64,000 bases of DNA from Aquabacterium sp. A3. Its GTDB lineage: Bacteria > Pseudomonadota > Gammaproteobacteria > Burkholderiales > Burkholderiaceae_C. The stretch spans positions 1,364,001 to 1,428,000 of the forward strand of contig NZ_JBBPEV010000001.1 in assembly GCF_038069945.1 (NCBI RefSeq). Direction: 5' to 3'. The position numbers and the translations under genes were made by a program. Below are positions 39,011-61,961 of the stretch, in pieces (position 1 is the stretch's first letter; every line of letters starts with the position of its first letter). A model generated the notes under the pieces. The model ran no database searches. It was given only the letters and a program-made list of their open reading frames with translations, and had not been told where the DNA came from.

Positions 39011-39063
39011 CTCAGCGCCAACGTGGCGCGAAAGCCTTCCCCTCACGCATCAATCGTTGTGAG

Positions 39064-39633
39064 TCACCTGGGATCATTTTCAGCTTCGGCTTGGCTCTTC
39101 TGAAAGCTTTCGTACATCGACGCGATCCGAAACACGTGCATCGTCGCAGCCAGGGCGCTGGCGAGGGAATAGATGAAGAGCGCGTAGCCAATGAAACCCG
39201 CCGCCCCATTCATCCACGGAAGGGCGGCCTTGAAAAAAGCCGGTGCATCAATCCAAGGGAAGTACATGGCCTTGGCGATGATCGCGAACAACAGCGCCAA
39301 GATCTGTACCAGGATGAAGTGCACGAATGTGGAGCAAAGCCTGACGTAAGCGGTCGGGGCATCCTCGTCGTCCTCGTCATCTGGCTCAGCGAGCAGTTGC
39401 CTGAACTTCTCATCGCCGAAGCTGATGAAGATGGCAAACCCTCCAAGGGTGAAGCCGAGGACGTTGGGGACGATCGCAGTCACTTGATCCCACCAACCAG
39501 GGGTGAGCCAGACATTGGCACAAATCAACGTGATCAGAAGCGCCGCGTGCAAGTAGAACGAGCGCACCAAGGCAGCGGTGCCGCCATAGGCACGCCAGTA
39601 CCGTGCGTAGATGCTGAACACGCCCTTGTACAT
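39064..39633 (-). CDS. Four-helix membrane protein, last gene of the defence operon
   Basis: A 189-residue integral membrane protein. Four hydrophobic segments are visible: LHAALLITLICANVWLTPG, VTAIVPNVLGFTLGGFAIFI, TFVHFILVQILALLFAIIAK and AAGFIGYALFIYSLASALAA. An acidic cytoplasmic-like loop with EPDDEDDEDAP lies between helices 2 and 3. The start at 39633 lies 10 bp after the DUF4747-like gene. It could be a membrane effector or anchor paired with that gene. No established family is recognised. Confidence 0.75.
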   Translation of the reverse strand: MYKGVFSIYARYWRAYGGTAALVRSFYLHAALLITLICANVWLTPGWWDQVTAIVPNVLGFTLGGFAIFISFGDEKFRQLLAEPDDEDDEDAPTAYVRLCSTFVHFILVQILALLFAIIAKAMYFPWIDAPAFFKAALPWMNGAAGFIGYALFIYSLASALAATMHVFRIASMYESFQKSQAEAENDPR

Positions 39634-39643
39634 GGTCACCCCG

Positions 39644-40510
39644 TCAGCCGAGCATGTCTGCGGCTCGCCGCAACGTGTCAAACAGTGTCTCGACATTTGG
39701 ATCATGCTGGAAGCGTTCGCGCAAGGGCTTATCCTCGGTCGACATGTCCTGCTTGACTCCGGCTGCATCGTGACCGCTTGCCGTCACCTTGCCATTGCTT
39801 GCCGCCACCCTGGCCAGGGCCACCGTCTCCGCATCTGGCTTGATCGTCTGGTTCCGTTCTGAGTCCAGCTGAACCGTTTGCTTGCGGACGTTCTGTTTCT
39901 TCAGCCGATCTTTCCAGCTCTTCTCGATGTCATCGCCATCGTCAGGATTGGGCGGAACCAGCTCGATCACCAGATGTTCGAGTGACGTGAGGCTCAAGAT
40001 CTCATCCAGCGCATCCTTGGCCGGCTCCACCGTGATTTCCACAGGAGGGAACAAACCCTCCAAGGCGAGCGGCTGAAAGACGCCATCCAAGAGCTGCTTG
40101 GCAGTACTCGGGGACATGTTGTCTTTTCGATCCTTGGATACAAGGTACAGGCGATGGGTGGCCGGTTTGAACAGAAACGGGACCCTCTGCAAATGCGGCA
40201 GCAGGTGCGAAGGAATACTCAGTGCTTCCAGATCGTCAGGTGATGCGGCCTCTTTCGTCTGGGCGTTGAACCATGGCTCGTCGGGGTCCAGCTTCAAGAA
40301 GCGATACAGCTCGCCCGTCAACTCCTTCTCAGCGCTCGCGCTGGCCGTGCCATACAGTGAGCCGATCATTCCCCCGTGGACACTTCCAAGGCGCACCATG
40401 CGTTTGGCGGCGAACGCCGTAGACAACAGCTCCACATACCGCCTCCTGGAATGTGGCGAGTGCATGGCGAGGTTCAGGCAAGAGACCGTGATCGTCCGGG
40501 TTCGTTCCAT
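39644..40510 (-). CDS. DUF4747-like protein
   Basis: A 288-residue protein whose N-terminus (RTITVSCLNLAMHSPHSRRR, YVELLSTAFAAKRMVRLGSV) and overall layout resemble my recollection of DUF4747 proteins; a profile search would settle this. The middle part (LLPHLQRVPFLFKPATHRLY, EITVEPAKDALDEILSL) has RNA/DNA-binding-like beta-alpha segments, and the C-terminus is charged and probably disordered. It lies 49 bp after the DUF1998 helicase gene and 10 bp before the membrane protein gene. DUF4747 proteins accompanied by small membrane proteins occur in mobile islands; the function is unknown. Confidence 0.55.
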   Translation of the reverse strand: MERTRTITVSCLNLAMHSPHSRRRYVELLSTAFAAKRMVRLGSVHGGMIGSLYGTASASAEKELTGELYRFLKLDPDEPWFNAQTKEAASPDDLEALSIPSHLLPHLQRVPFLFKPATHRLYLVSKDRKDNMSPSTAKQLLDGVFQPLALEGLFPPVEITVEPAKDALDEILSLTSLEHLVIELVPPNPDDGDDIEKSWKDRLKKQNVRKQTVQLDSERNQTIKPDAETVALARVAASNGKVTASGHDAAGVKQDMSTEDKPLRERFQHDPNVETLFDTLRRAADMLG

Positions 40511-40559
40511 GATGTCGTTTTGCTTCCCAAATTGAAATTTCTTGTGGTCTTTGCTCGCG

Positions 40560-43500
40560 TCAGAGGACCCGAACCAGCTCAGCGACAGCTCGCACCGCGT
40601 TTGCGTCAGACGGGGTCAGCTGGATCGGCGTGAACGCCGGGTTCACTGGACTCAAGGTGATCTTGGTCTGCTGGACATCACCGTCATCGCCAACCAACTT
40701 CTCGCTGCGATACAGCTTGAGCGTGTATTGCCCGCCCGTTTCCGGATCGGTCACGCCGCTGTGCCAGACCAGCAGCTTACGTCCATCCTTCGTGCCACCT
40801 GGCACCGGGCGGAACAGACAGTAGCTTCCAGACGGAACCAAAGGCTCCATCGATTGGCCCACAACCTGTGCAACGAACATCCCCGGTGCCAGCTTGAACT
40901 CATCCAGAACGGCCCACTCGTCGGCGTGGTCAGCCAAAGCATCAAGATTGCCCTGCTCCTCACTCCACAGGCCCGCCGCAGCCTTCAGTGTGCTGATCGG
41001 CACGCAAGTGTCGTAGGGCTTGAACGCTGCCTGACCGGGTTGGATCACGGGGAACGGGTAGATCGTGGCGCTCGGGGCACTGGCTGGCGCCTCGGCCGGT
41101 TGCGCACCCGTGGCGATTTCAAACCACCCGTCGGCGGCTTCGACTTCTTTGGCTTTGGCCTTGCCCACCACGGCCTTGGCGATGCGGCGCATGTGCGTGC
41201 GCATCACGGTCTTGTCGTACAGCTCCTGGTACTGGATGGCCACCACCTCGTAGTCGGTGTTCAGCAATTCATCGCGGATCTGCCGGTCCTGCGCCGCCGT
41301 CTGCGAGTTGCCATGCAGGTGCTCACTCATACCGTCTAGGTAGACGCAAACGCCGTCGAACTGGTCGTTCGGTTTGTGGAAGTAGACATCAGGCCGGGTC
41401 ACCACGCCGCCGCTCAACTCAATGGGTCGCTCCGTCTCAAAGTCGAGGAGGCCAGCCGCTTTGAGCATGGCAACGAGCTGCTGCTCGGGCGGGTTGCCAG
41501 GCTTCTTGCCCTGGTTGTCGTCGGGCAGCACTGCTGGGATCGCGTGGCTGAGGATGAGGCCGTCACCCCAGTTCGTGATGCACTCAAACGCCGCATGCCT
41601 GTTCAGGTGCTCGTGATAGAACGAATTGCGAAAGTTCTGCAAGCAATCGATGCACGAGGTGTCGCAGGCGGATGGGCAGTCCTCGACCAGCGCCAGGGTG
41701 TGCTTGACCACAGCGGGCCAGTGCGCGAGCAACTGCTCCAGCAGGCCCGAACCACCAGGCATCGGGTCATACAACAGGGCATCGAACTTGTCAGACCCTG
41801 GCTTACCCAACACCTGAACCTGCAGATCCGAGATTTCCATGTCCAGTACACCCGCAGCCCCTTGCCGCAAGGCTTCCATCACGCTGTAAGCAGCCTCCTT
41901 CGACGCACAGTCGGGCAGCACCAGCGCGTCGGCCACCACTTCGGCGTAGAAAGCGATCTTCTGGATGGGCCGCCCACAACGCTCGATGTGGTGCTCGTTG
42001 AAGGCATCCAGCTCCTTGAGGGTGCTCATCGGCGAGCGGCTTTGGCCGCAGACCATGCACACGGGGTAGCCCATCTCACCGCTGGATCGCACCTGCGAAG
42101 CCGCACCCACATTGACCAAGCGCATGTGCAGCCCGTGCTTCAGGTGCAGCGTGGCCGCACCCCATTCATAGGCCTTGCCACCCGAATGGCGCCCTTGGTC
42201 CTGGCCGAAGACGGCCACCGGAAGCTGGAAGCGGTAGTCCTCATCGTCTGAGATGTAGGACTGGTGCGGCGCATCCACGTCACACACCTGCACGCCGAAG
42301 ATGCTGGACACCCCCACCGATTCAGCTTGCGTGGGTGCAGCAGCCTTACCCAGCCCTCCGGTCTCCTGGATCGCTTCATTCGCAAGGTCCACCGCAAACA
42401 CGATTGGCTCTTCCGGCACCAGATGGAAGGTGCGCGGCACGAACTTGTGTGCGTTGGCGTAGATCAGGTTACCCGGCACGTACTCGCGCACGGCCAGTGC
42501 GCTGTTGCGCCGCAGTTCCCAGTCAGAGATGTCTGATCCAAAGCGCGGTGCGATGTGCGTGATGCTGACCGCGCCGGTGTCCAGGCCATAGCCTGGCAGG
42601 AAGCCTTCGGCCGCCAGCACGCCATAGGTGTTGGTGTCGTCAACACCCTCGGCCTGGTTAGCCCGACGGCGAGCCTCACCCTTGAGCTTCTTGACCAGGC
42701 GCTCGCAGCGACTGCGCAGCGCTTCTTCATCAGGGTCCAGCGCCCCCTTGGCACTGGCCACCTTGCGCAGGCGCTCCAGCTGATTCAGCGCCCATTGCAG
42801 GCGCTGGAAGAGGCGGTCCACCACCACTTGCAACTCTGCTGACAACCCGTCGATGGTGGCCTCCACACTGGCCTGGCTGACCACATCAGCATCTGCCGCT
42901 GGCCACCCTTGCTGGAAGGCCGTCATCGTGGCCGACAGCAGTGCTTGGCGATGGCGCTGAATCACTGTTTCCAACGCGCTCACCTTCATCGGCGCAGGGC
43001 GCACCATGCCCTCAGGGGTGAACAGGTAAGTTCTGATCTGCTGTGGCAAGCAACTGCGTACCGCTTCTTGCAGCTCATCCATCGCGGCTTGAGGCAGGGC
43101 CTTGTCACGCAGCATCTTGAAAACTGCAGTGAGCACCGTGGCATGCACATGCTTGGCCACCATGATGGGGTTGCGCAAGTTGAAGCTGGGGGGCTCGACC
43201 AAACCTTCCAGCATCTTCAACGGTTCGTTGAAGTAGGCACGGTCATGGCTGGCGGCGCGCGCATAGGTGATGTCCAGCGCCATGCGGAACTGACGACCCG
43301 CACGGCCTGCGCGCTGCCAGTAGTTGGCTGGAAGCGGGGGCACGTTGCGCATCAGCACCGCATCCAAGGCACCGATGTTCACGCCCATCTCCAGCGTGGG
43401 TGTACACACCAACGTGTTGATGCGCTCGTTGTCGCCCTTGAAAGCGTTCTCGATGCGCTCCCGGTCTGGCCCGGGGATCTGGGCTGAGTGCTCTTTGGCA

Positions 43501-46500
43501 CGCAACATAGCGAATTCCTGATCGAGCAACAGCAGGTCGTAGTCGTCCGCGTTCTCCGGCTCCAACACCAGCTTGCCCGCGCAACGCCAAGCCATGCATG
43601 ACAGCGTCGGGTTCGGTCGGCTGTGCAAGCGCCGGCAGGTTTGACAGCGGTACATGCCCTTGGCGGGTCGCATCTTCAACCGATCGACGTCCACCTGGTG
43701 CGCGCCCACGCAGCCAGGCAGCAACTTGCCGCGAGCACCCTTCAACTGAACCGGCGCCAACAGCAGCAGCTCGTTGGCCACCAGCGCCCACATCTCGCTC
43801 AGGAACTCGCCTGCATCACCGCTGGGAACACCCCAGGCCAGTGCCGCTTGTCGGGCCACAGTGGCATGGGTGCTGAACCACTGCTTGATTCGTGTCTCGT
43901 CGTCTTGCCCGTCACGCTGGAACTTCAGAGCCGAGGGCACGCCCTTCATGGATGGCAGGTAACCCCGCAAGACCTCGCGCTCGCCGTCCAGCCACACCTT
44001 GGAATACACGCCGGTGACACTGTCAAAGATCATGCGCCGTGACCGCGCTGCATCCAGCAGAGACGCCACGCCCTGCGCCAGCGCCTCAGGCTCGCAGCCG
44101 ATCCTGGCAGCCCATCGCTTGATCTCAGGGCGCTCACCGTCCAGGCCCAGGTAGTCCACCTTCAGTCGGCCCATGGGTTCCAGGCCCAGGCGCTGTCGGC
44201 CACCGATGGCCAGTTCACGCAAGATCTGAACACGCAGGAACCACTTGCGTTCCTGGCCGTGCGCCTGGCCCGTCTCTGACTTGGGCTCGACACGCCACAC
44301 CTCAGGGATCAGCGCACGCGACAACTCGTCGTCCGCATCCAAGTGCTGGTCCAGCCACAGCGTGAGGTCGCTGACCGAAATCGTTCCCTGCTTGAGTTTC
44401 TGATAAATCAGTTCGCGGAAGCGATAGCGGCGCGATCGGTCTTGCATCCAGCCAGCCTGGAAGGCCGCGTCCTGCCGGTTGTCAGCAAACACCAGCAGGC
44501 GGCGGCGCTCGGCACGGTGAATCATGCTTTGGGCCAACACATGCACGTCGGCCACCGTGGTGGCCCGAACAGGACGCGCTGGCTCACGGTAGTTGCCACT
44601 GAATCGGCGGCCAGCCGCTCCGCAAGACACACAACGCGTCAACTTGCCCTTGTGCTCATCCTTCTGCTGGACGAAGTACAGCGGCTTGAGCGCCTTGTTG
44701 CGGCCACAGCCCGCGCACTCAGTGACGTTGTCATCATGGACAGTGCCGCAGTAACGGCAGGCGAACAGCGTTTCGGTTCGGACGGGCTCTTCCTCGGCAT
44801 CGTTGCCCACTTGGTGGTCCAGCGACAAGGCACGCACGCCGCCCAGTTTGATGTCTGCCCCACGCCAGACGCGGCCCTTGCCCTCAGCTGAGCCACCACC
44901 GGGGTGCGCGCCGGTGAAGTCAAAGTCCTCCAAACCGTGCTCGAAGTAGTGCTGCCCGCAGGTGGTGCAGCTCAGTAGCGGGAAGCGATGCAGGTCGGTG
45001 TTCTCGGCCAGTGCGTCCTCAGCCGACAGCCACAGCTTGGCATCCTTGCTCTGGTCAGGGAAGGTGACCACCGCGCCGCTGACGCCGCGCACAAAGCCAT
45101 GCACTACAGGGCGCAACAAGGGCCGGCCGCCTTGGCGCGCGGCAGCGCCCAGGGCCAGCCACACCAGGATCTCCTCTTGTGAGATGGTGCGCCCCAGCTT
45201 TTCGCTCAGATTGACCAGCAGGTCATCGAGCGCACGCGGACGGCGCAGCGATTCAGCGATCTGGTAGACCACTTCGTTGTGGCTCATCCAATGCCCGATG
45301 GCCTCGCGCCAAGGGCCAGGCTGCAATCGGCTGCCCGTGGCGGTGGTGAACCATACGCGCAAGGCCTGCACATCGGCCTCGGTGGCCTCTTCCCGGTCAA
45401 CCTGGGTCAGCACCTCCAGCACGGTCTGCAACTGGGCCGATTGGTCACCGTTGAGTGGCGGGCTGGCAGTTCGGGGCGTACCCCACACATCGGCCTCGTA
45501 GCTTTCGCCCACCAGGGCGACATTCTTGCCGTCCACGCCAAAGAAGCGGCTGGCAAACTCGCGCCCAGCGTCCAGGCCCTTGACCGGATCGGCGATGGTG
45601 GCCGAGGTGGCAATGCAGGTGGTGCTGGACTGGTCCTTGCCGCAATAGGCACGTAGGCGGCGAATCAGGCAAGCCGTCTCGGCACCTTGCGCCCCGGTGA
45701 AGGTGTGGGCCTCGTCGAAGACCATGAACTCCAGCCGGGCGTTGTCGAACAACTCCAGGTCGTGCTGGCGGGTCAGCAACAGCTCCAACTGTTTCACGTT
45801 GGTCAGCAGGATGCGCGGTTGTTGGCCGGGGGTTCGCATGGCCTCGCGGCTGGTGCGCTCTTCCGCAGGGTGCAGGGCCACGTCCTGCTTCTTGGCCTGC
45901 ATGTCGGCCAGCTTGTTCTGATAGTCGGCCGCAGTGCTGCCGGGCGGCAAGCGCACGCCCACCACGTCAGACTCTTTCTGCGGCGTCTTGCCCACGTACA
46001 TGCCGAAGGTCACGCCCGTACCGGCAAGCAGCGCGCGCATGCGTTGCAACTGGTCTTCGGCGAGCGCGTTCATGGGGTAGACGATCACAGCGGTGATGCC
46101 TGCGGTCGCATCCTCGTCACGCAGTTGCAGGCAGCGGCTGATGATGGGAAACAGGAAAGATTCGGTCTTGCCCGAGCCCGTGCCCGTGGCCACCAGCGTA
46201 GGCTGGCCGGCGTGGATGGCACGGAAAGCCTGCTCCTGGTGGCGGTAGGCCGCCGGGTAGGGAGACAGCTTGCGGATGTGGGCGTGCAGCACCCCTTCCT
46301 TCACCAACTGTTCCAAGGTCGCGCCCTGCTGGAAGGTGCGTGACAGCGAGATGTACGGCCCCTTCATCAGTGGCGTGTTACGGGTGTGCTCCAGGTTGAG
46401 CAGCGTCCGCATCTGCTGGTACAGGCCCGTGTCGGCGAAAGCGTAGGTGCTGAGCTGGTAGCGCAAAAAGTCGCCGACGACCTGCTCGGTGTAGGTGATG

Positions 46501-46511
46501 GGGTTGAGCAT
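40560..46511 (-). CDS. Giant SF2 helicase-DUF1998-nuclease-S24 fusion protein
   Basis: A 1983-residue protein. Domains in order: SF2 helicase with Walker A ATGTGSGKTES (about 108), FDEAHTF (about 265), ATSATIAD, and the second RecA lobe with TPTLEMGVNIGALD and QRAGRAGR (about 1068); two Cys-pair zinc sites (CRYCG with CAGCG, and CQTC with CAGK); DUF1998 with a Cys cluster CPSACDTSCIDCL (about 1617); a Vsr/PD-(D/E)XK-like nuclease segment (about 1675-1790; RPDVYF, VYLDG, then QDRQIRDELLNTDYEV); and a C-terminal LexA-type S24 domain (about 1835-1983) with Ser1887 in GQSMEPLVPSG and Lys1932 in YTLKLYR. It looks like DrmA-DrmB of DISARM fused, or DruE of Druantia, with added modules. The start overlaps the methylase stop (TGATG). 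Confidence 0.88.
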   Translation of the reverse strand: MLNPITYTEQVVGDFLRYQLSTYAFADTGLYQQMRTLLNLEHTRNTPLMKGPYISLSRTFQQGATLEQLVKEGVLHAHIRKLSPYPAAYRHQEQAFRAIHAGQPTLVATGTGSGKTESFLFPIISRCLQLRDEDATAGITAVIVYPMNALAEDQLQRMRALLAGTGVTFGMYVGKTPQKESDVVGVRLPPGSTAADYQNKLADMQAKKQDVALHPAEERTSREAMRTPGQQPRILLTNVKQLELLLTRQHDLELFDNARLEFMVFDEAHTFTGAQGAETACLIRRLRAYCGKDQSSTTCIATSATIADPVKGLDAGREFASRFFGVDGKNVALVGESYEADVWGTPRTASPPLNGDQSAQLQTVLEVLTQVDREEATEADVQALRVWFTTATGSRLQPGPWREAIGHWMSHNEVVYQIAESLRRPRALDDLLVNLSEKLGRTISQEEILVWLALGAAARQGGRPLLRPVVHGFVRGVSGAVVTFPDQSKDAKLWLSAEDALAENTDLHRFPLLSCTTCGQHYFEHGLEDFDFTGAHPGGGSAEGKGRVWRGADIKLGGVRALSLDHQVGNDAEEEPVRTETLFACRYCGTVHDDNVTECAGCGRNKALKPLYFVQQKDEHKGKLTRCVSCGAAGRRFSGNYREPARPVRATTVADVHVLAQSMIHRAERRRLLVFADNRQDAAFQAGWMQDRSRRYRFRELIYQKLKQGTISVSDLTLWLDQHLDADDELSRALIPEVWRVEPKSETGQAHGQERKWFLRVQILRELAIGGRQRLGLEPMGRLKVDYLGLDGERPEIKRWAARIGCEPEALAQGVASLLDAARSRRMIFDSVTGVYSKVWLDGEREVLRGYLPSMKGVPSALKFQRDGQDDETRIKQWFSTHATVARQAALAWGVPSGDAGEFLSEMWALVANELLLLAPVQLKGARGKLLPGCVGAHQVDVDRLKMRPAKGMYRCQTCRRLHSRPNPTLSCMAWRCAGKLVLEPENADDYDLLLLDQEFAMLRAKEHSAQIPGPDRERIENAFKGDNERINTLVCTPTLEMGVNIGALDAVLMRNVPPLPANYWQRAGRAGRQFRMALDITYARAASHDRAYFNEPLKMLEGLVEPPSFNLRNPIMVAKHVHATVLTAVFKMLRDKALPQAAMDELQEAVRSCLPQQIRTYLFTPEGMVRPAPMKVSALETVIQRHRQALLSATMTAFQQGWPAADADVVSQASVEATIDGLSAELQVVVDRLFQRLQWALNQLERLRKVASAKGALDPDEEALRSRCERLVKKLKGEARRRANQAEGVDDTNTYGVLAAEGFLPGYGLDTGAVSITHIAPRFGSDISDWELRRNSALAVREYVPGNLIYANAHKFVPRTFHLVPEEPIVFAVDLANEAIQETGGLGKAAAPTQAESVGVSSIFGVQVCDVDAPHQSYISDDEDYRFQLPVAVFGQDQGRHSGGKAYEWGAATLHLKHGLHMRLVNVGAASQVRSSGEMGYPVCMVCGQSRSPMSTLKELDAFNEHHIERCGRPIQKIAFYAEVVADALVLPDCASKEAAYSVMEALRQGAAGVLDMEISDLQVQVLGKPGSDKFDALLYDPMPGGSGLLEQLLAHWPAVVKHTLALVEDCPSACDTSCIDCLQNFRNSFYHEHLNRHAAFECITNWGDGLILSHAIPAVLPDDNQGKKPGNPPEQQLVAMLKAAGLLDFETERPIELSGGVVTRPDVYFHKPNDQFDGVCVYLDGMSEHLHGNSQTAAQDRQIRDELLNTDYEVVAIQYQELYDKTVMRTHMRRIAKAVVGKAKAKEVEAADGWFEIATGAQPAEAPASAPSATIYPFPVIQPGQAAFKPYDTCVPISTLKAAAGLWSEEQGNLDALADHADEWAVLDEFKLAPGMFVAQVVGQSMEPLVPSGSYCLFRPVPGGTKDGRKLLVWHSGVTDPETGGQYTLKLYRSEKLVGDDGDVQQTKITLSPVNPAFTPIQLTPSDANAVRAVAELVRVL

Positions 46512-51580: not shown

Positions 51581-54500
51581 TGCGTGCTCCCCGGCAGACG
51601 AATCTCGATGGTCACGGGGAAGACTTGAGCCGATCCCAGGAGTGCAAAGCGATGGGGCATGACGTGTTTGAGGATGCGGTCCCGCTCCTGTGTCAGGCGT
51701 TCGAGCAGGTCTCCGAACTGGCCTTGTCGGCGCTTGAGCTCATCTTGCAGATCGCGCAATTCACGTTCCGCCTTCTCGTTGGCGTCTTCCAGTAACGAGT
51801 ACTGCAGTTGCTGCTTGCGGTGCTCTTCGATCTCGCGCTTGATCTTTTCGATGCTCTGCTCGCGTTGCAGGCTGGCCACCTCGCGAATACGGCGCTCGAA
51901 AGCAGCTTTCTCGTGTTCAGTAGCAGTGCTACCGGCCGATTTGAGTTCGCGAGCCAATGTGGTGGTCAGTTGATCGCGGTAGGCGTTCAACCAGGTTTTG
52001 ACGCTGGTGTCGACGTCGTCCCAGATGTCGCGAGCGGCGGGCACGATGGCTGCGTCCTCGGCTCCAGGCATAGTTGCTGCATGTGGCCCGGCGTACGGCA
52101 GCATGCTGCCCAGCTTGCCACCCGACACCGGTAGGGCCACGGTGCGCACCCAGTGGTGCAGCGTTTCGCGGAGTTCGTTGATGCCCAGCTCCTCAATGGT
52201 CAGCAGCACAAGCGCATCTGCCCCGGCCGGCACATGGCCACGGGTGGCCACCCAGCGACTCGGCGGAGCGAACTCGCTTTGCCCCCCCGGAAAGCGCAAC
52301 CGGGCGAACGAGGTCAGCGCCTGGCGCATCACCGGATGGCCAAGGTGCATCAGGACCGTGTCAGGCGACGGGCGGAACACCGGGCGCCCGTTGATGGTGT
52401 GGACGAAGTAGCGGTTGTCGAACACCAGCCAAGGCATGGCACCAGCCACGCCGCGATCACCACGCAGGCGCAGGCTGTCATCAGCCACGGCTTGCCAGCG
52501 CGCTGGCAGGGGTGTGCGCAGCCGCATGCGTCCGGTCGCGTCCGGGCCTTGCAATGGCTCATGGGCCGAGCCCAGGCCCAGTGCCATACGCAGGGTGTTT
52601 TGAAGGGTTTGAGGGGTCAGATCCAGGTCGGTCAGCAAGCGCTCCAAGCGCGCACGCTCTTCGATTCCGCGCTCGGCTGTGACCACGCGGGCGTCGTCCG
52701 TGGCGTGTTGTCGGGTCCCGATCTCGCGGTCCAGGTCGGCCAACACGTCCTGATCGTCGTTCAGCTCCATCATGCGACGCTGAAATGCCGCGTCGAACAA
52801 CTCACCGACTGATCCCAAGTCCTCGCGGATGTCGTTGACCTTCTCCAGCACGCGGGCCACAAAGGCCAGGTCGGCATCATCGTCACTGGCGAAGTGAAAG
52901 ATCGTGACATCGCGCGCCTGGCCATGCCGGTCGATACGGCCGTTGCGCTGCTCCAGCCGAGAGGGGTTCCAGGGGATCTCGTAGTGCACCAAAAACCGAG
53001 CGGTGTGCTGGAGGTTCAAGCCCTCGGACGCAGCATCGGTGGCCACCAGGATCTGGACTGCAGAGCCCGGGTCATTGAAGGCAAGCTTGATGCGCTCGCG
53101 ATCTTCATCGGACATGCCGCCGTAAAGCTGGACGATGGCGCCTGTGTCGGCACCGTACTCGCGCTCCAAGCGCTGCACCAGGTAATCCAGAGTGGTCTTG
53201 TATTCGGTGAAGATGATCAAGCGCTCGTCAGGGTTCCAGGCCTCAGCGTTGCGCAAGCGCTCACTGATCAGCTCTTTCAGCCGGTCGAAGCGAGCATCAA
53301 CGGCAGGCACCTTGGTGGTGACTGGCAAGTCGGTCAGCTTCAGCGCCTGGAGGGCTGCATCGACTGCGGCCACTTCTTTGGTCAGTTTCCCCAAGTAAGG
53401 GTGCATCCAGGCGCCGACAACGTGCGCCGCATGCAGGTTCCGGCTTTCGCGCTCCTGATCGTCATCGATGTCTTCCTCAACGGCCCGACGAGCGGCCAGC
53501 ACTTCGCTTGCATGGGTCTGCTCCTGTGCATCAAGGCCCGCTTTGAAGCGCAGCCAGCTGTCCGCGAAGGTGACCGGGCTGGACAGCAGACGCTTGCGCA
53601 GCACCTCGATGGCAAAGTTCAGCACGGAGCGCACTTCAGGGGCCGCCAAGATCTGGCGCTTAAGGGCCGCGCAGAACGCTCGCACGGCCACGGCCAGGTC
53701 TTTCTCGGCCCGCATCATGTAGAGCGGCATTGGCTTCAGGTTGCGCGTGGCGAATCGCGGCGGCCGTCCAGCATCCTTGTCTTGCGTGTTGATCTCGCTC
53801 TTGAGACGGCGGATCAGCACATCGCCGATCATGGCGCGCTCTTTTTCGGTGAAGGCGGGTGTGCGCGTGAACCGCACGGGGTCCAATTGCTCCAGGAGGC
53901 CGGAGAAACAGCGTGTGTGGCCGTTGTGCGGAGTCGCGGTCAAGAACAGCCGGTGCTCGAACCAAGGCGTCAGCAGGCGCAACATTTCTGCCAGGTCACT
54001 GTCCTCGCCAAAGTTGGACGGCATCAGGTTGTGCGCTTCGTCAACGATGAGCAGATCCCAAGGCAATTGGGCGCCCTGCTGGGTCTGCGTGGACCGGCAG
54101 TTGGCGATGAACTGCTCCAGCACGTCTGGCTGGCGCAGGTAGTGGTACGAGGTGATGATGCGGGGCAGCGCGCGCCAGGGGTTGGCGTCCAGCCCCATTT
54201 CTTTCTGCAAGCGATGCGTGGCCGCCTTGTCCACGATGTCAAAGCCCAGAGAGAACTTCTCTTCCATTTCTTGCTGCCACTGGGTACGCAGCGAGGCCGG
54301 GGTGATGATCAACACGCGCCGGATCCGGCGCTTTCGGACCAACTCGGCAAGGATCAGACCTGCTTCGACCGTTTTACCCAAGCCGACATCGTCGGCCAGC
54401 AGCAAGGACACGCGCGGCATCCGCATGGCGCGGGCCAGCGGCACCAACTGGAAGTCATCTGCACTGACGGCGCCATAAACTGGAGCAGTTGGGACCGACT

Positions 54501-54849
54501 CAGCTTGGCGATCGGGGTCTTCTGGCGAGAGGAATGGCGTGATGGCTGTCCAGCGCGTGGCCCGCTGGAGCGAAAGGAATTCGGCCATCTTCATGGGAGC
54601 TTCCGCATCGACCTTGGGCAATGCGTTGGGCTCCAGCACCACAGGCCCACGTTCCCGCTCCCACAACACAGTCTCTTCGGGTTCGCCATCGGCATCGCTG
54701 AACTCGATGGTGACCAAGTGGAGCAGCTCAGATGTCTTGGAGGCAGCAAATGGCTCGACGGCGGAGATGACGCCGCGCCGATTGCGCACAGTTGCCAGCA
54801 TCCCTACCCGAGGAACAGAAATCTTTTCAGTATTCACAGCAAAATCCAA
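51577..54849 (-). CDS. SNF2-family helicase, DrmD-like (second helicase of the operon)
   Basis: A 1090-residue ATPase. An N-terminal SH3-like part (VGMLATVRNRRGVISAVEP) is followed by the SNF2 core: LLADDVGLGKTVEAGLILAE (about 158), LLIVDEAHNL (about 268), LFLTATPHNGH, and the second lobe IIFTEYKTTLDYLVQRLE, LVATDAASEGLNLQ and RLEQRNGRIDRHGQ (about 638). The C-terminus is a long coiled coil (about 960-1065). The start is TTG 54849 with GGAG 4 bp upstream; GTG 54837 is an alternative. It lies 25 bp after the Hsp70-like gene and overlaps the methylase by ATGA, which is how DrmD and DrmMI are arranged in DISARM class 1. Confidence 0.88.
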   Translation of the reverse strand: MDFAVNTEKISVPRVGMLATVRNRRGVISAVEPFAASKTSELLHLVTIEFSDADGEPEETVLWERERGPVVLEPNALPKVDAEAPMKMAEFLSLQRATRWTAITPFLSPEDPDRQAESVPTAPVYGAVSADDFQLVPLARAMRMPRVSLLLADDVGLGKTVEAGLILAELVRKRRIRRVLIITPASLRTQWQQEMEEKFSLGFDIVDKAATHRLQKEMGLDANPWRALPRIITSYHYLRQPDVLEQFIANCRSTQTQQGAQLPWDLLIVDEAHNLMPSNFGEDSDLAEMLRLLTPWFEHRLFLTATPHNGHTRCFSGLLEQLDPVRFTRTPAFTEKERAMIGDVLIRRLKSEINTQDKDAGRPPRFATRNLKPMPLYMMRAEKDLAVAVRAFCAALKRQILAAPEVRSVLNFAIEVLRKRLLSSPVTFADSWLRFKAGLDAQEQTHASEVLAARRAVEEDIDDDQERESRNLHAAHVVGAWMHPYLGKLTKEVAAVDAALQALKLTDLPVTTKVPAVDARFDRLKELISERLRNAEAWNPDERLIIFTEYKTTLDYLVQRLEREYGADTGAIVQLYGGMSDEDRERIKLAFNDPGSAVQILVATDAASEGLNLQHTARFLVHYEIPWNPSRLEQRNGRIDRHGQARDVTIFHFASDDDADLAFVARVLEKVNDIREDLGSVGELFDAAFQRRMMELNDDQDVLADLDREIGTRQHATDDARVVTAERGIEERARLERLLTDLDLTPQTLQNTLRMALGLGSAHEPLQGPDATGRMRLRTPLPARWQAVADDSLRLRGDRGVAGAMPWLVFDNRYFVHTINGRPVFRPSPDTVLMHLGHPVMRQALTSFARLRFPGGQSEFAPPSRWVATRGHVPAGADALVLLTIEELGINELRETLHHWVRTVALPVSGGKLGSMLPYAGPHAATMPGAEDAAIVPAARDIWDDVDTSVKTWLNAYRDQLTTTLARELKSAGSTATEHEKAAFERRIREVASLQREQSIEKIKREIEEHRKQQLQYSLLEDANEKAERELRDLQDELKRRQGQFGDLLERLTQERDRILKHVMPHRFALLGSAQVFPVTIEIRLPGSTQ

Positions 54850-54874
54850 ATCACTCCGAGGATGCTATCGCGTT

Positions 54875-56626
54875 TCATTTAGCGTACAGGTCGTCTCTGT
54901 CGAGTCTGGGGCGGACATGGACAGCGCCAAGAGCTGGGTCGTCTTCAATGTCCTTCGCGAGAGTGAGCGTCCCAAAATTGAAGGGGTCTTGTGCCAGTCC
55001 GCAGGCCACTGAGATGCGGTGGTAGCTACCAGGTGGGAACAGATGTTCCGCCACCTTGTTATGTCTGGGAATGTCCAGCATGTTGACGCGGTGGGCCACC
55101 CTTCCGACACCTCCGTCTACCGGCCCTCGGTACTCAGCCAGTGAACCGCCTCCGCCCGACATGAAAACTCTCAGCCCGTTAGCCCAGGCGGGTGAAAGCT
55201 TGTAGCGCTTTGTCTTGGTCTTTGCGACAACCGCCCTGACGAGCTTCTCCACCTCTTGCCCAAACAAGCCATCTCGGGCCAGAACCGTATCGGGCTTCAG
55301 GCTTGCTTGCCGTGCAAAAGCCTCAGCTTCCAGCGCGCATGAAATGGGATCTACGGCGCTGGCGTCCTGAGTATCCGCCCCCACCAACCGGTTTTGGAGC
55401 AGCATGTGAACGCCCAAAGGTTTGACCTCTGGTGCCCATATGGCGAACTTATCCTCACCCTCGCGGTGGATCACAGAAAACGTGACCACATCCAACGAAC
55501 CGCCACCCACATCAACCAAACAGTGCAGTCCATCTGTTCTTTGCGATGACTGGACATAGCCTGCTACTTGAGCCAAAAACTCCGGGATGAGGCCTGGCTC
55601 GTCAGCCAGAGATTCAGGACGATTGGTCATCCAATCCAACACCTGGGATGTATCGGAATCGAGTCGACCGGGGACTTGATCTTGCAGGCTGAGGTGCCAT
55701 GCCAAATGAACCAAGCGCAGGTAAGCAATCTTTTGCTGATCGTCTTCAAGACCATTGCTTGGCATGCCCAGGTTGAGCATCCAATTGAGGCGCTTGTGCC
55801 GCAACAAGTCACCATGCTCCTTGTAGGTCCATGAGCGAACGTATCGAATCACCAATGCGAGGAAGACCGCAGCTTCGCATATGGAGCGGCGTGACACTGC
55901 AGGCATGAGGAAAGGATGTTTGAGGTTTACCAACACCGATTCACGTGTTACACGAGGGTGCTGCCCTAAAACTGCCCGACCTCCCTCCAAGACTGAGTAC
56001 TCGGTAGGGAGTGTCAACTGATCATCGGCGCTGTTCGCGCCATCCCACCGAACAGGGAAGATCGCGTCCATCAGGCCTACAGCCGCTTTGGTGTATGAAG
56101 TTCCAAAGTCAATGCCGATGAATACGTCGATGGGCGGCTGCCCGGTCCGCTCTTCGCCCAAGGACAGTTGGCGCCCCGCTTCAACCCAATCAGGTGCTTC
56201 AACGTACTGGCACTGCCGCGTCAATGCAGAGGGCCTAATGGAGCGAAAGGTGACAGGAACAGCAGGCTCTGCCTTGGGCTTCACCGCCGCGACAATCTGA
56301 GCTGACGCGGGCATGGGCGCTGCAAGCTTTTCTAGCAGCGGTCTTGCCGTTTTGGTTTGGGGCTGGGACCTGATCTGCTGCGACTTGGACACTGGCGCCG
56401 GTTGGCGTGTTCTATCGGATGATCCCCTTCGATCAAACTTGGCCCCAGACGGCTTATTGGTTGCCGACGTGGTTGTGCTGCGACGCAGCGGGTCCAGCGG
56501 CGGCCTCGCAGACTGGCTGTGCGTCACACGTTGGTCCGCCTGCCGTGGCGCGCTGCTTGGGCTGTCTGCCCTTATTGAGGCCAGGTCGCCCTTGATGGCC
56601 TTCAATTGATCTCGCCAATCTTTCAT
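54875..56626 (-). CDS. Hsp70/actin-fold ATPase of the defence operon
   Basis: A 583-residue protein with the sugar kinase/Hsp70/actin ATPase fold. Phosphate 1 is VFIGIDFGTSYTKAAVGLMD (about 165-185), phosphate 2 LVDVGGGSLDVVTFS (about 375), and the adenosine motif VFMSGGGGSLAEYRG (about 490). About 130 Ser/Pro/Arg-rich, probably disordered residues precede the fold. No substrate-binding domain of true DnaK is present. The ATG at 56626 overlaps the upstream helicase stop (ATGA). Its role is presumably nucleotide-dependent assembly or gating of the complex; that is inference. Confidence 0.85.
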   Translation of the reverse strand: MKDWRDQLKAIKGDLASIRADSPSSAPRQADQRVTHSQSARPPLDPLRRSTTTSATNKPSGAKFDRRGSSDRTRQPAPVSKSQQIRSQPQTKTARPLLEKLAAPMPASAQIVAAVKPKAEPAVPVTFRSIRPSALTRQCQYVEAPDWVEAGRQLSLGEERTGQPPIDVFIGIDFGTSYTKAAVGLMDAIFPVRWDGANSADDQLTLPTEYSVLEGGRAVLGQHPRVTRESVLVNLKHPFLMPAVSRRSICEAAVFLALVIRYVRSWTYKEHGDLLRHKRLNWMLNLGMPSNGLEDDQQKIAYLRLVHLAWHLSLQDQVPGRLDSDTSQVLDWMTNRPESLADEPGLIPEFLAQVAGYVQSSQRTDGLHCLVDVGGGSLDVVTFSVIHREGEDKFAIWAPEVKPLGVHMLLQNRLVGADTQDASAVDPISCALEAEAFARQASLKPDTVLARDGLFGQEVEKLVRAVVAKTKTKRYKLSPAWANGLRVFMSGGGGSLAEYRGPVDGGVGRVAHRVNMLDIPRHNKVAEHLFPPGSYHRISVACGLAQDPFNFGTLTLAKDIEDDPALGAVHVRPRLDRDDLYAK

Positions 56627-59600
56627 CGCCCGCCTCCCAACACGCGAATCACCCCGAAACAAACAGGAGAGTCATCCGGGTTGAGACGCTCTCTTTGGCG
56701 CACCCGCTCACGTTTGAGCTCAATGCGCGCACGAAGCTTATCGATCCGCCCCTGCGTGGCTTTGACAAGGCCATGGCGCGCCAGCGCTTTGTGCATGGCC
56801 AGGACACCCTCCAGCTTGCCCAACTGCTGATTCAGATGCTGATCAAGCCCATGGAGCTGGAACATCATCCGGTCTGCGTTTTCGTTCTGTTTGCGTTGCA
56901 GTGCACGCTGATACGCCCCTTGGATGTTTGAATCCAAGAGGTCATAAGCCTCTGCCACCACGTTAGCGGTCAAAACACTACCCGCCGCAAGCCAGTCGCG
57001 CCCATGCAGCCTGGCGGCGTTGATCAAGGCCTCAGCCGCATCCTCATCCAACAGATCTGCCGATGCCAATGGACAGGCCGCCTTCTGCAACCACTCTTCC
57101 TCGCTTACCCCAGAAAATGACCACTTACGGATGGAAAGTGCGTAGTCGCCAGGCTTTAAGGTTGGCACCTGCTCAGCGTCAATCTCAACACTCACCAGCC
57201 CGTGATGCGCTTGGCCTTTGCTTCGTTCACCAATAAAGCGCACCAATGGATGAAACTGGTGAATGGCCTCCCATCCACGGTTGCCCGACACGGTGATTTT
57301 GTTGATGAACCGGCACTGGCGAGGCAAGCCACTTCCCAAGGCTGACATCCCTGTCTGTCCGGTCCTTCGGCAGTATTCGTCAAAGTCTGCGGCCACTGCC
57401 GATGGCAACTGGATCGAATACTCATGAGGGCCACCGCTCTGTACGAACTGGTGCCCTTGCGCTTGTCTGACTAAAAAGTCTTTGACATAGATGATCAGGT
57501 CGTCTTCAGTCACACGACGAGAGACCTCTTGAGCGGCCTTGATGCGCTCCAATACCAAGCCGCCATGGGCCATCATCTGGGCGGCATTTTTCTCCAAACG
57601 CTCCTGCTCGATGCGAACGTTTTCCAGGGACTGTCGCGCTGCCTCAATAGCTCGCTCCTCCTCCTCCGGTGTCAGGCGACGCGTTAGCAGGGTGGATTCA
57701 AGGTTCTGAATCACCTCGCCTATGACGGGCTCAGGTTCGCCCAAGGCCTGCTCAAATACCCTCAGCCTTGAAAGCAGGCGGCTGAAGATGCGTTCGTCAA
57801 TCGTGCCGCCATACATCAGGTTCCAGATGTGGATGATGTCGGCTTGCTGGCCAAGTCGATCGATACGGCCAATGCGCTGTTCAACGCGCATTGGGTTCCA
57901 TGGCAGATCGTAGTTGATCAACAGCTTGCTGAACTGCAAGTCGACGCCCTCAGACGCGACCTCCGTCGACACCAAGACCCGGAGATCAGGCTGGTCGCGA
58001 AACTGATTGATCAGGTCTTGCTTGGACTCTTGCATGTTGCCCCACAGCAGCAGGGAAGGAATGCCAGCAGCACAGAGCTTCTCGGTCAGATACTTGGCGG
58101 TGACGCGGAAGGAAGTGAACAGGATCACCTTCTCACCTGGGGAGGCCGCAAAGTAGTCGCCCAGAACAGCCTTGAGGCGATGTAGCTTTGAGTCGTTAAG
58201 CTCAAGCGCCTGGACATCCAGATTTCTGGGGCGATTGGCCTTCAAAAAATCCTTCAACGATCCACTGACATCTTCGTATTCAAAGTCATTGGACTCGGAC
58301 TCTTCGCTGTCTTCGACATACACGCTGGTCATGTCGTCAACCAACTCGGCCTGATCGCCTAACCATGCTTTGGCAAAGGCTGCAGGGCAGCTACAAACCT
58401 GCCGCTGTGGCGTTGCCAGCAAGAACCCATCTGAAATGCTGTGACGGAAGGCATAGTCACGCGTAACCTCGGTGACATGCTCATAGAAGGCACGCTCTTC
58501 TGCCGTCATGGCGACGATCTCGGCCTTGGGTTCACGCTTGGCCCTTTTCACTTGCACGTCGCGTTTGCGCGTGCGCGTGATCACATGTCCGAGCAGGTTG
58601 ACACGCTCCAGGCCGGCCGCCAGCTCGGAACGATAGGATGGCTCCGCCAGGTCCGCATCTGTAGGCGGCGTGTCTCGTAATGCCGCCAGTTGCCGAGACC
58701 TTGCCAGCATGTCATGCGCAGCAGCCTCTTGGATGAAACCATTGATTTCTTCAGCCGTTGACCCGATGCGCAACGCCGCATCTCTGGCCGCCACCAAAGG
58801 CTGGTTTGCTTGAACCATCTCCGCAAAGTTTGATCGGTACTGAAAGTGGTCCGGGTCACACAGGCGCAGAAGGTGGAACAAATCCTCTCGGTCAGTGTTG
58901 ATGGGAGTGGCAGACAGCAGCACCCGCTGATGCGAAACATCCCGAAGCATCTGGCCCAGTTTGTACGAGGCGCTTTCAGGATTGCGCATGTAGTGGGCCT
59001 CGTCATAGATGACCAAGTCCACCAACGGCTCTTCTTCTGCACAGCCATCCAGCAACTCCGCGAGCAGATGCCGAGACCCTGGTCTTTTCGAAGTGGCGCT
59101 GGCGCCAGACTTCCAGCCACGAGGTGGCCTCAGCGCCTGGTAACTGGCAATCCATGCCTTGGTCGGACCGAAGGCAGACGTGTTCTGAAGCTCACTGGTC
59201 AAAGTGGCTGCATCCACTATCTGAGACTCAATACCAAATCGGTTCAAGAGTTCGTCCCGCCATTTCTCCCTGAGCATGGCGGGGCAGACGATCAAAAGCC
59301 GCCGCATCTCTTCGCGTGCACGCAACTCCGTCCAGATGATGCCGGCCTCGATGGTCTTGCCCAAGCCGACCTCATCCGCAATCAGGATGCCGCTTGCAGG
59401 AGACTCCAGCAATGTCAAAAGCGGTTTGTATTGATGGGCATAGAAGTCAGTGTTGGTGACGCCCATCGAATAGACCAAGTTGGCCAACCGCCCCGATAGA
59501 TGCACATGGGTGAGGTTGCGCCGTAAGTCTTCAGACCGGCCATACCGACCAGCGTCGATCTGTTGATAGATGTCGCCATCACCATCTTCGGTCAGCGCCT

Positions 59601-59748
59601 CCAGCAGCTCACTGGAGCAATAGTCAGTTGTGCCGTCGTGCCATCGAATGGAGTAGTACGGCACCCCATTCCGGGGCCGCTGATTGCCCGTGGCTGTGCC
59701 AACCTTACCTGGGTTGTCCTTGCGGCGAACCTGTGTCCCCTTTTCCAT
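56623..59748 (-). CDS. RapA-like SNF2 helicase, first gene of the defence operon
   Basis: A 1041-residue SNF2-type ATPase. An SH3/Tudor-like start (TQVRRKDNPGKVGTATGNQR) is followed by ILIADEVGLGKTIEAGIIWT (about 128), LVIYDEAHYMRNPES (about 249), LLSATPIN, VILFTSFRVTAKYLTEKL, STEVASEGVDLQFSKLL and RVEQRIGRIDRLGQQ (about 626). The C-terminal 400 residues, with charged helices, are not recognised. RapA/HepA relatives displace proteins from nucleic acid. AGGGAGGT lies 4 bp before the ATG, a very strong ribosome site. It shares its layout with the second helicase but is clearly diverged from it. Confidence 0.88.
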   Translation of the reverse strand: MEKGTQVRRKDNPGKVGTATGNQRPRNGVPYYSIRWHDGTTDYCSSELLEALTEDGDGDIYQQIDAGRYGRSEDLRRNLTHVHLSGRLANLVYSMGVTNTDFYAHQYKPLLTLLESPASGILIADEVGLGKTIEAGIIWTELRAREEMRRLLIVCPAMLREKWRDELLNRFGIESQIVDAATLTSELQNTSAFGPTKAWIASYQALRPPRGWKSGASATSKRPGSRHLLAELLDGCAEEEPLVDLVIYDEAHYMRNPESASYKLGQMLRDVSHQRVLLSATPINTDREDLFHLLRLCDPDHFQYRSNFAEMVQANQPLVAARDAALRIGSTAEEINGFIQEAAAHDMLARSRQLAALRDTPPTDADLAEPSYRSELAAGLERVNLLGHVITRTRKRDVQVKRAKREPKAEIVAMTAEERAFYEHVTEVTRDYAFRHSISDGFLLATPQRQVCSCPAAFAKAWLGDQAELVDDMTSVYVEDSEESESNDFEYEDVSGSLKDFLKANRPRNLDVQALELNDSKLHRLKAVLGDYFAASPGEKVILFTSFRVTAKYLTEKLCAAGIPSLLLWGNMQESKQDLINQFRDQPDLRVLVSTEVASEGVDLQFSKLLINYDLPWNPMRVEQRIGRIDRLGQQADIIHIWNLMYGGTIDERIFSRLLSRLRVFEQALGEPEPVIGEVIQNLESTLLTRRLTPEEEERAIEAARQSLENVRIEQERLEKNAAQMMAHGGLVLERIKAAQEVSRRVTEDDLIIYVKDFLVRQAQGHQFVQSGGPHEYSIQLPSAVAADFDEYCRRTGQTGMSALGSGLPRQCRFINKITVSGNRGWEAIHQFHPLVRFIGERSKGQAHHGLVSVEIDAEQVPTLKPGDYALSIRKWSFSGVSEEEWLQKAACPLASADLLDEDAAEALINAARLHGRDWLAAGSVLTANVVAEAYDLLDSNIQGAYQRALQRKQNENADRMMFQLHGLDQHLNQQLGKLEGVLAMHKALARHGLVKATQGRIDKLRARIELKRERVRQRERLNPDDSPVCFGVIRVLGGGR

Positions 59749-60802: not shown

Positions 60803-61840
60803 TCACCCAAGCTTGGCAGCAATGTCCCCCGGCCTCGGGTGGTAGTAGCGCTTCAGCATCTGCAAGTCCTTGTGCCCCGTCACGCTGGACAACTCCAGCA
60901 CGTTGCTCAGCTTCTCGGCAATGCGCGAAGTGCCTTCGTGCCTCAGATCATGGAAGTGAAAATCTTCCAGCTTGGCGCGCTTCACAGCCCGCGCCCAGGC
61001 CAGCTTGAAGGCATTGGCTGACACGTCAAACACACGCCCTTCTGGCTCGTCATCGCCCTTCAGCTCCGCCAGGATGGCCATGGCCTGCGTTGACAGGGGT
61101 ACGTTCCTCGACTCGCCGTTCTTGGTCTCCGGCAGGTGCACATAGCGCTCTTCCAGGTGCACGTGCTGCCAGTCCAGCGCCAGGATTTCGCCGCGCCGCA
61201 TGGCGGTGGCAATGGCCAGCTCCACAATCGGTCGCAGCCAGGGCACACGGCAACTGCGCTCACGGCCGTCGGCCGTACAGGCAGCCAACAGCCGCGCTTC
61301 TTCTGAAAGGTGGGCCTTGCCCTTCTTGGCTGGCTTCAGGCGGCGGTCACGCCCGTTTTTCACCTTGGGCCTGGCCACGCCCTGCGCCGGGTTGCGCGGC
61401 AATGCAATTTCCCACTCCTGCATGGCGTGGGCGATCACGCGCTGCAGCAGGCCCATCTCGCGCACCACGGTGGCCGGGCACACCCCGTCCACCTTCAAAC
61501 GTTCGTCGCGGTAGCGGGCGATGTCGATGGGCCGCAAGTTGGCCATGGCCGTCTCGGCGAACTTGCGCCGTGCCATGGCCTTGAGCCGAGCGATTTCGCT
61601 GTCAGCGCCTCGGTGCAACGGCGAGACCTCCTCAACGTACTGGCCGATCAGGGCGGCCAGCGTCTTGCGTTCGGCCAATGCGCGCGACACGAAGGTGCCA
61701 CGGCGCATCTCGGTCTCGACCTCAGCGGCCCAGGCCATCGCGTCTGATTTGCTCTCGAAAGTGCGGGCAAGCTGAGGGAATCCGGCTTTGCGGATCTTGG
61801 CTTCCCACTGGTAGTCGCCGCGCTTGTAAAAGCTGGCCAT
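60803..61840 (-). CDS. Tyrosine-type site-specific integrase
   Basis: A 345-residue phage-type recombinase that integrates and excises the island at tRNA-Arg. The N-terminal arm-binding start is ASFYKRGDYQWEAKIRKAGF, and a SAM-like core-binding domain spans about 60-150. Catalytic residues are Arg in AIATAMRRGEILALDWQHV, His-x-x-Arg in FHDLRHEGTSRIAEKL (about 298), TGHKDLQMLKRYYHPRPGD with the nucleophilic Tyr (about 330). The ATG at 61840 gives the normal N-terminus; the frame stays open through the tRNA but has no gene-like start there. It reads away from the tRNA, the usual arrangement. Confidence 0.94.
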   Translation of the reverse strand: MASFYKRGDYQWEAKIRKAGFPQLARTFESKSDAMAWAAEVETEMRRGTFVSRALAERKTLAALIGQYVEEVSPLHRGADSEIARLKAMARRKFAETAMANLRPIDIARYRDERLKVDGVCPATVVREMGLLQRVIAHAMQEWEIALPRNPAQGVARPKVKNGRDRRLKPAKKGKAHLSEEARLLAACTADGRERSCRVPWLRPIVELAIATAMRRGEILALDWQHVHLEERYVHLPETKNGESRNVPLSTQAMAILAELKGDDEPEGRVFDVSANAFKLAWARAVKRAKLEDFHFHDLRHEGTSRIAEKLSNVLELSSVTGHKDLQMLKRYYHPRPGDIAAKLG

Positions 61841-61872
61841 CTGTCGTCCTCCGACGTCTCCGTCATAAGCAG

Positions 61873-61890
61873 TGTCGGAGAATTGTCGGA
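61873..61890 (+). promoter_or_regulatory. Paired TGTCGGA motifs, candidate recombinase arm sites (right)
   Basis: TGTCGGA at 61873-61879 and 61884-61890, 11 bp apart, lies between the integrase start and the tRNA repeat. It matches the pair at the left end in sequence, spacing and orientation. The sites also overlap the expected integrase promoter, so integrase or excisionase binding could regulate int. Confidence 0.5.
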
Positions 61891-61961
61891 AAAAGGCCTG
61901 CGTATAAATTCCAGAGCCCTTTTTGAGGGGTCTGCGGGGGCATTTGCCCCAGGCCACAGAG

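Follow-up and report, generated by a model that had tools for sequence, protein, structure and literature searches.

Three adjoining putative anti-phage modules, the middle one ARMADA-like, on a mobile island of Aquabacterium sp. A3

A stretch of 64,000 nucleotides from Aquabacterium sp. A3 (contig NZ_JBBPEV010000001.1, positions 1,364,001 to 1,428,000; here called the window) contains a run of seven open reading frames (ORFs), g7 (first) to g1 (last), all on the minus strand between 59748 and 39064. The original prediction, made from the sequence without database searches, took them for a single undescribed defence system that fits no standard type. Homology gives good support to a role in defence. 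The run, however, appears to consist of three neighbouring anti-phage modules carried by a mobile island, a reading to which we give a probability of about two in three. The modules are an SNF2 translocase paired with an Hsp70-like ATPase (g7-g6); a three-gene core (g5-g4-g3) that corresponds to ARMADA, a system the prediction did not name, and whose helicase g3 would carry an optional, self-cleaving switch coupled to the SOS response; and a DUF4747 protein paired with a membrane protein (g2-g1). Related genomes carry subsets of the seven genes, an outcome that the prediction itself had named as refuting it. The core keeps its order elsewhere, and no second locus with all seven was found in one scan of genome contigs, three context-free protein searches and samples of 130 to 399 genomes. 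A single conserved seven-gene unit was rejected on these limited searches, in which modules were found separately; the modules also differ in GC content.

The compact layout described originally, on one strand with short overlaps and gaps of at most 49 bp, was borne out, and the lengths in the ORF list are those first stated. Neighbouring genes share ATGA at g7/g6 and g5/g4 and TGATG at g4/g3, and are separated by 25 bp at g6/g5 and by 49 bp at g3/g2. The start of g6 most likely lies at ATG 56626, giving 583 amino acids (aa), and not at the TTG at 56662 (595 aa) used earlier, because its seven closest homologues are 575-584 aa long. That of g1 is most likely ATG 39633 (189 aa), so that an apparent 125-bp overlap of g2 and g1 vanishes. 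A pattern scan of 38900-58800 found no terminator-like site between genes on the minus strand; two minus-strand sites were found, one inside g4 and one inside g7. The same scan returned no promoter-like sites where 3.6 were expected by chance, and is therefore uninformative on promoters. The GC content follows the modules, being 0.57-0.58 in g7 and g6, 0.62-0.63 in g5 to g3, and again 0.57-0.58 in g2 and g1.

Gene identities were sought in Pfam, NCBIfam and PADLOC 2023 with a match threshold of E 0.001. No PADLOC or NCBIfam label covers the whole set, which was thus rejected as an already named system; g1 and g6 match nothing in the three libraries, and g2 nothing in PADLOC or NCBIfam. Core gene A, g5 (51577..54849, 1090 aa), encodes an ArmA/DrmD-like SNF2 helicase that scores 641.7 bits with the NCBIfam model DISARM_DrmD (NF038317), over the cut-off of 610. 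Core gene B, g4 (46511..51580, 1689 aa), encodes a PglX/YeeA-like adenine methyltransferase with DPAMGSG at residue 659 and NPPW at 975; it matches PADLOC REase_MTase_IIG with 2260 bits and DrmMI with 433 bits. Core gene C, the ArmC-like g3 (40560..46511, 1983 aa), encodes a YprA-family helicase in which the Pfam domains DEAD, Helicase_C and MZB/DUF1998 are followed by a Vsr-like region and an S24 tail, with Walker A at residues 110-116, DEAH at 266 and QRAGRAGR at 1066. Its best PADLOC label is DruE3 (374.8 bits, in parts), and it matches DrmA with 46.5 bits; PADLOC matches to DrmA and PLD_Helicase cover helicase parts of proteins. The original prediction saw in g3 a fusion of drmA and drmB functions. 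A helicase and DUF1998 do share one chain, yet this need not be a new fusion, being the normal form in the ARMADA/Druantia branch as described by Bell et al., whose 2025 preprint presented ARMADA as the link between DISARM and Druantia (PMC12458937).

The core is rare in the genome samples searched. A search with g4 at E<=1e-30 gave matches in 9 of 399 same-family genomes, with full-length close matches confined to the window and genome G633; at E<=1e-50, two of 369 genomes of the class matched (the window and G1051), and a search with a g3 alignment at 1e-150 recovered only the window itself among 279 genomes of the phylum. Part of g4 had no blastn match in E. coli, and a single g3 query of viral contigs returned nothing useful. 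In G633 the order A-B-C is kept, with proteins 88, 83 and 91% identical to g5, g4 and g3, and the sole DNA homology between its 16.9-kb contig and the window spans 54815-41122, the core minus the last ~185 residues of g3. An IMG/VR contig (L127) holds A, B, four other ORFs and then C at 49% identity, the next ORF being 278 aa long. Plasmid CP101713 of Synechocystis B12 (L051) carries A-B-C in pieces at 34-67% identity, and G1051 carries A-B only, at 48% identity. The plasmid core is fragmented into numerous ORFs, interspersed with transposases and a gene with a PIN domain, and is perhaps decaying or a sequencing artefact. In these four loci g6, g2 and g1 were not found by tblastn, and the tblastn matches of g7 are cross-hits to gene A. 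The G633 contig ends 0.17 kb past C, that of G1051 inside B, and the L127 stretch begins inside A; absence of flanking genes beside the core was tested downstream in two loci and upstream in three.

Phylogenies of the three core proteins support a separate lineage, apparently of mixed parentage. Trees were made with treekit. ARMADA labels came from gene order and neighbours, Druantia labels from PADLOC or tree position, and DISARM labels from record annotation or, for five of six DrmD rows, NCBIfam; groupings were tested after the first tree was known, and long branches are present. In these trees g3 and seven homologues group together with 100/100 support, in the company of ARMADA I, ARMADA II, a Thermales/haloarchaea group and Druantia. 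None of the ARMADA I references, among them haloarchaeal A-B-C systems, falls within this clade, and the nearest row beyond it is a haloarchaeal ARMADA I helicase. The gene A proteins of the window, G633 and G1051 are sister to six DISARM DrmD proteins (99/98), and their joining ARMADA II is rejected (p value of the approximately unbiased test, p-AU, 0.002); the final tree left out L083, and an earlier one including it also put g5 with DISARM DrmD (95/98). By contrast, g4 is sister to the ARMADA II methylases (ArmB) with 100/99 support, and its joining four DISARM-type methylases is rejected (p-AU 0.0006) in a tree with L108 in place of L052, an E. coli row that was incomplete. Genes A and B therefore have different nearest kin.

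The original account of g3 was incomplete, as it missed both C-terminal parts of the protein. The Vsr-like PD-(D/E)xK region, at about residues 1660-1797 (41121..41534), is a candidate nuclease by its motif, by weak profile matches and by analogy to published ArmC. The motif PD-x-[YF]..YLDG occurs in 105 of the 120 g3 homologues listed, which are the best 120 of at least 7343 significant matches among 8000 candidates. In Pfam the restriction-enzyme model MTES_1575 matches one of eight members (E 0.014), and four PDB matches at E<=10 (best 0.053) include none that is convincing. Tails differ among these best 120: 50 carry S24, 55 end near the nuclease and 15 have other endings. The tailless proteins are mostly (51 of 55) 1793-1847 aa long, and so not truncated; four are shorter. 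On a 122-row FastTree phylogeny the S24 state changed at least 12 times, or at least 11 times without the four short rows.

The tail itself, residues 1838-1983 of g3 (40563..41000), is a LexA/UmuD-type S24 domain by conservation, Pfam and PDB profile. It contains a putative cut site, A1846-G1847 (nucleotides 40976-40971), together with Ser1887 (40853-40851) and Lys1932 (40718-40716). Across 56 sequences, comprising 50 g3 homologues and six other helicase-type proteins, A1845, A1846, Ser1887 and Lys1932 do not vary and 55 have G1847; some of these sequences are only 34-45% identical to the domain of the window. Pfam Peptidase_S24 scores 20.1 bits on g3, under its cut-off of 23.3. A profile of seven diverse members matched 13 distinct PDB sequences at E<=1, all of them LexA (nine, best E 0.0015) or UmuD (four, E 0.44-0.83), and the Ser column falls on the GDSM of LexA; the S24 part alone had no phmmer match in PDB. 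The domain also terminates other helicase-type proteins (eight loci checked, seven ORFs, six used, L034 dropped). By eye we take these six (L014, L016, L019, L030, L021 and L025) to be helicase-like proteins of two kinds, DUF2075-like and type III Res-like. This distribution suggests that S24 is a generic add-on of defence enzymes. LexA, UmuD and CI undergo RecA-stimulated self-cleavage, and from this known biology RecA-stimulated cleavage at A1846-G1847 is predicted. We found no description of an S24 or LexA tail on a YprA helicase in the literature, covered mostly at title and abstract level. The available texts of PMC12458937, PMC13192584 and PMC11090510 contain no mention of S24, and in that of PMC13192584, where 3-aPBA served as an inhibitor of LexA self-cleavage, LexA is named only as the host SOS repressor.

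The first module begins with g7 (56623..59748, 1041 aa), a RapA/DrmD-like SNF2 translocase that scores 996 bits with PADLOC DrmD and 435.9 bits with NCBIfam DrmD, below the cut-off of 610, and that clades in a tree with three partners of other Hsp70-like genes (100/100). The second gene, g6 (54875..56626), encodes a probable Hsp70/actin-like ATPase, as judged by conserved motif columns and weak DnaK profile matches. Its motifs DFGTSYTK and DVGGGSLD, which we take to resemble those of Hsp70/actin ATPases, consist mostly of columns invariant in an alignment of 40 sequences, where G.DFGT..TK and D.GGG are kept throughout. A g6 profile gave seven PDB matches at E<=1, four to DnaK (best E 0.16) and three to MT-A70 methylases; phmmer with g6 gave none in PDB. 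Searches of viral contigs with the g6 alignment yielded 20 pattern matches and no relatives, and those of plasmids three records, all distant.

Matches to g6 occur in five of 399 genomes of the same order, the window's own included. In G329, G231 and G212 the g6-like gene stands directly behind a g7-like gene; the remaining match, in G171, is marginal and contains stops. One scan of genome contigs added an Aquabacterium metagenome-assembled genome with adjacent homologues of g7 (98% aa identity) and g6 (78%). The pair is thus present without the core in four other genomes: no g3 homologue was found in three, and G212 has only weak YprA pieces. The window and the Aquabacterium DNA (L001 6876-11749) are 95-99% identical from 59748 to about 56550 and 71-83% identical thereafter, with homology extending upstream to 60120; the drop near the g6 start forms a sharp mosaic boundary within that gene. 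In G231 the genes ahead of the pair are DrmA (789 bits, below the cut-off of 950, and only part of the gene in the stretch), DrmB (514 bits against a cut-off of 240) and one of 578 aa. The Aquabacterium pair points towards a gene for a BrxHI/HmaA-like helicase, behind which comes a methylase whose matches to HmaB and DUF1156-type models stay below the cut-offs. From these two neighbourhoods, the pair would seem to be an accessory moving between different helicase-methylase systems. Directly behind the pair in G329 lies a gene for a 906-aa protein of no recognised family (L048 5089-7809), which has no NCBIfam match. In the literature, again mostly titles and abstracts, we found no description of an SNF2-Hsp70 defence pair; Hsp70-like domains are reported in CoCoNuT systems in the available text of PMC11090510.

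At the other end of the core, g2 (39644..40510, 288 aa) matches PF15931 (DUF4747) with 318 bits (cut-off 27) and phrog_10040 with 240.5 bits, and g1 (39064..39633) encodes a membrane protein with four hydrophobic segments by hydropathy that matches phrog_20580 with 144.7 bits. Of 130 same-family genomes searched with PF15931, two matched, the window and G420, where a 299-aa DUF4747 gene is followed directly by one for a 207-aa membrane protein. No core genes were detected there by tblastn of the seven proteins in a 19-kb stretch, a search for which g2 is too distant. Among 50,697 phage records neither g2 nor g1 had a tblastn match, and a search of plasmids with g2 gave two distant records. Pairs of a DUF4747-like and a membrane protein in CarolAnn and Sbash, and RexAB of lambda, are described as exclusion systems (PMC7542560, PMC6426606), and DUF4747/CarolAnn is listed as an immune operon in PMC13373217. 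Like RexAB and CarolAnn gp44-gp43, g2-g1 joins a DUF4747-type cytosolic protein to a following four-helix membrane protein, although it lacks tblastn matches among the phage records. We regard g2-g1 as resembling these pairs, with exclusion via the membrane as its putative mode of action.

The run lies on an island of 36.7 kb (25260-62006) flanked by identical 45-bp direct repeats (25260..25304 and 61962-62006) at a tRNA-Arg(CCG) gene. This gene was located by ARAGORN at 61962..62037 on the minus strand and contains the right repeat. A tyrosine integrase is encoded on the minus strand at 60803..62023 (PF00589, 94.6 bits), and GC content is 0.606 within the island against 0.676 and 0.664 outside. 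In the congener G549 the counterparts of the flanks 24741-25307 and 61961-63998 directly adjoin each other, with 49 bp in common, which marks an empty site. The island proposed originally is therefore upheld. The WYL regulator described as its neighbour (36229-37212, plus strand) is not upstream of g7; it stands at the 3' end of the run and faces it, with a 556-aa ORF without Pfam match (to 39010) between. Elsewhere on the island, 33278-34009 encodes a NYN and OST-HTH/LOTUS domain protein, a putative RNase, flanked by two ORFs (32062-33273 and 34037-35458) without Pfam or PADLOC matches. A HipA-like kinase gene is found at 26758-28026. In genome G431 this tRNA gene is occupied by a short element that contains HipA and remnants of an integrase, and the HipA-bearing stretch of the window is 90% identical to it in nucleotide sequence over 1.8 kb.

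For the activities of these proteins, their trigger (RecA) and the consequences of cleavage, we infer the following scheme. By homology the core is predicted to break down invading DNA. The methylase g4 would mark or survey DNA, while the SNF2 translocase g5 and the helicase-nuclease g3 would engage invader DNA that is unmarked or being replicated and degrade it, with the host surviving. RecA filaments on phage single-stranded DNA (ssDNA) would trigger g3 to cut itself at A1846-G1847 by means of Ser1887 and Lys1932. The loss of about 137 residues C-terminal to the nuclease would change the activity of g3. Release of a restrained nuclease is the effect we favour, the main alternative being an off-switch during host damage; either way the LexA-type tail would let RecA-ssDNA filaments report on the helicase's own substrate. 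The g2-g1 pair may serve as a membrane-acting back-up like RexAB and CarolAnn, and g7-g6 as an accessory remodeller accompanying helicase-methylase defence systems. If true, this would be a helicase-nuclease effector switched not by transcription but by RecA filaments on phage replication intermediates or damaged host DNA. A more specific proposal, in which the core is a third ARMADA-type lineage, a mosaic of DISARM (A) and ARMADA II (B) with a RecA-switched effector nuclease and SOS gating at the protein level, is tentative and in our view somewhat doubtful.

Several points weigh against the reading of three modules with a switchable, ARMADA-like core. The nuclease assignment of g3 is weak by profile. 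S24 is missing from 70 of the 120 listed g3 homologues, so the tail is not needed for the core, and its occurrence on other kinds of helicase could reflect a stability or generic SOS tag. Tests of the sister group of g3 gave p-AU 0.435 for ARMADA I, 69/35 support for ARMADA II and p-AU 0.103 for Druantia, and a grouping with DISARM DrmA, on a very long branch, was not formally rejected (p-AU 0.247). No GajB-RelE ArmD follows g3, where the DUF4747 and membrane-protein genes are found instead; ArmD 'almost always' follows the YprA gene in ARMADA Type II as described in PMC12458937. The tight spacing permits a single transcript, so that coupling of the modules is possible, and by the authors' own account the HHpred matches that link CarolAnn and Sbash to DUF4747 are weak (PMC6426606, PMC7542560).

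One integrated system, in which all seven proteins cooperate, would account for the near-gapless, co-directional genes with no terminator-like site between them, and the SNF2-Hsp70 pair, adjoining DISARM DrmA/DrmB in G231 and the BrxHI/HmaA-like helicase and methylase in Aquabacterium, is perhaps a true partner of such enzymes. Against this stand the occurrence of the modules apart, their differing GC content and the lack of a second seven-gene locus within a limited search, and we consider such a system highly unlikely. Alternatively, the core might be an ordinary, already classified ARMADA Type I with reversed order, the tail domain being its sole novelty. Type I has the order A-B-C in many archaea and cyanobacteria (PMC12458937), and a clade of g3 with ARMADA I is not rejected (p-AU 0.435). 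Pieces of the Synechocystis homologue share 42-58% identity with proteins of the g3 clade and are less like other reference helicases; because this cyanobacterial homologue falls in the clade, Bell et al. may already count it within ARMADA I. The place of the fully supported g3 clade outside the ARMADA I references, the kinship of g5 with DISARM DrmD and that of g4 with ARMADA II nevertheless make an ordinary Type I unlikely. The S24 domain could also be a relic or a protein-turnover tag with no switching role, as it is often gained and lost and is present on other kinds of protein. Conservation of cut site, Ser and Lys in 55-56 of 56 sequences, some of them divergent, would be unexpected of a relic, whereas a turnover tag still fits; together we judge these two options possible though rather unlikely.

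The core genes, with their differing parentage, illustrate how systems of this type are put together anew from existing components. The LexA-type tail, which keeps its active site through at least 11 changes of state, raises the question whether RecA acts as a signal for some defence nucleases. The island itself shows three modules stacked at one tRNA gene that can be read as one operon from sequence alone.

Among named systems, DISARM class 1 shares with the core a gene A product that passes the NCBIfam DrmD cut-off and a helicase-methylase-helicase order that we take to be that of drmD-drmMI-drmA. It was rejected: the seven ORFs include no separate drmA or drmB and, as originally noted, no phospholipase D gene, there being no such domain in Pfam, and g4 groups with ARMADA II and not with the DISARM methylases used. 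Druantia III was likewise rejected. DruE3 is the best PADLOC label of g3, yet the same model gives 2256 and 2486 bits for two genuine DruE3 proteins; g3 has the Vsr-like region and S24 in place of PLD domains, and DruH is not among the PADLOC families listed (the best 25 for four proteins; none for g1, g2 and g6). DruE, a relative, is described in PMC13192584 as acting on replication intermediates that contain ssDNA and as a presumed competitor of RecA.

The closest correspondence is with ARMADA. The core consists of a BrxHII/RapA-like helicase, a PglX-like methylase and a YprA helicase in the order A-B-C, an arrangement that the window shares with G633, L127 and the Synechocystis plasmid, and g3, with its fused DUF1998, falls on the ARMADA/Druantia side of the family by its Pfam domains, nearest tree row and PADLOC scores. 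ARMADA II of E. coli is reported to protect against 13 of 80 phages by a non-abortive mechanism that requires all four genes, NPPW and most Walker motifs, and the methylase motif of g4 and the helicase motifs of the core match those needed there (PMC12458937). The core differs from ARMADA in that gene A is sister to DISARM DrmD, that gene C stands in a clade apart in our trees and has an S24 tail in some members, and that two other modules flank it; the main text of PMC12458937 makes no mention of Hsp70, DUF4747, S24 or LexA. With the S24 peptidases LexA, UmuD and CI, the g3 tail shares the Ala-Gly site and the catalytic Ser and Lys, but here they are fused behind a helicase and putative nuclease and not to a repressor or a polymerase subunit.

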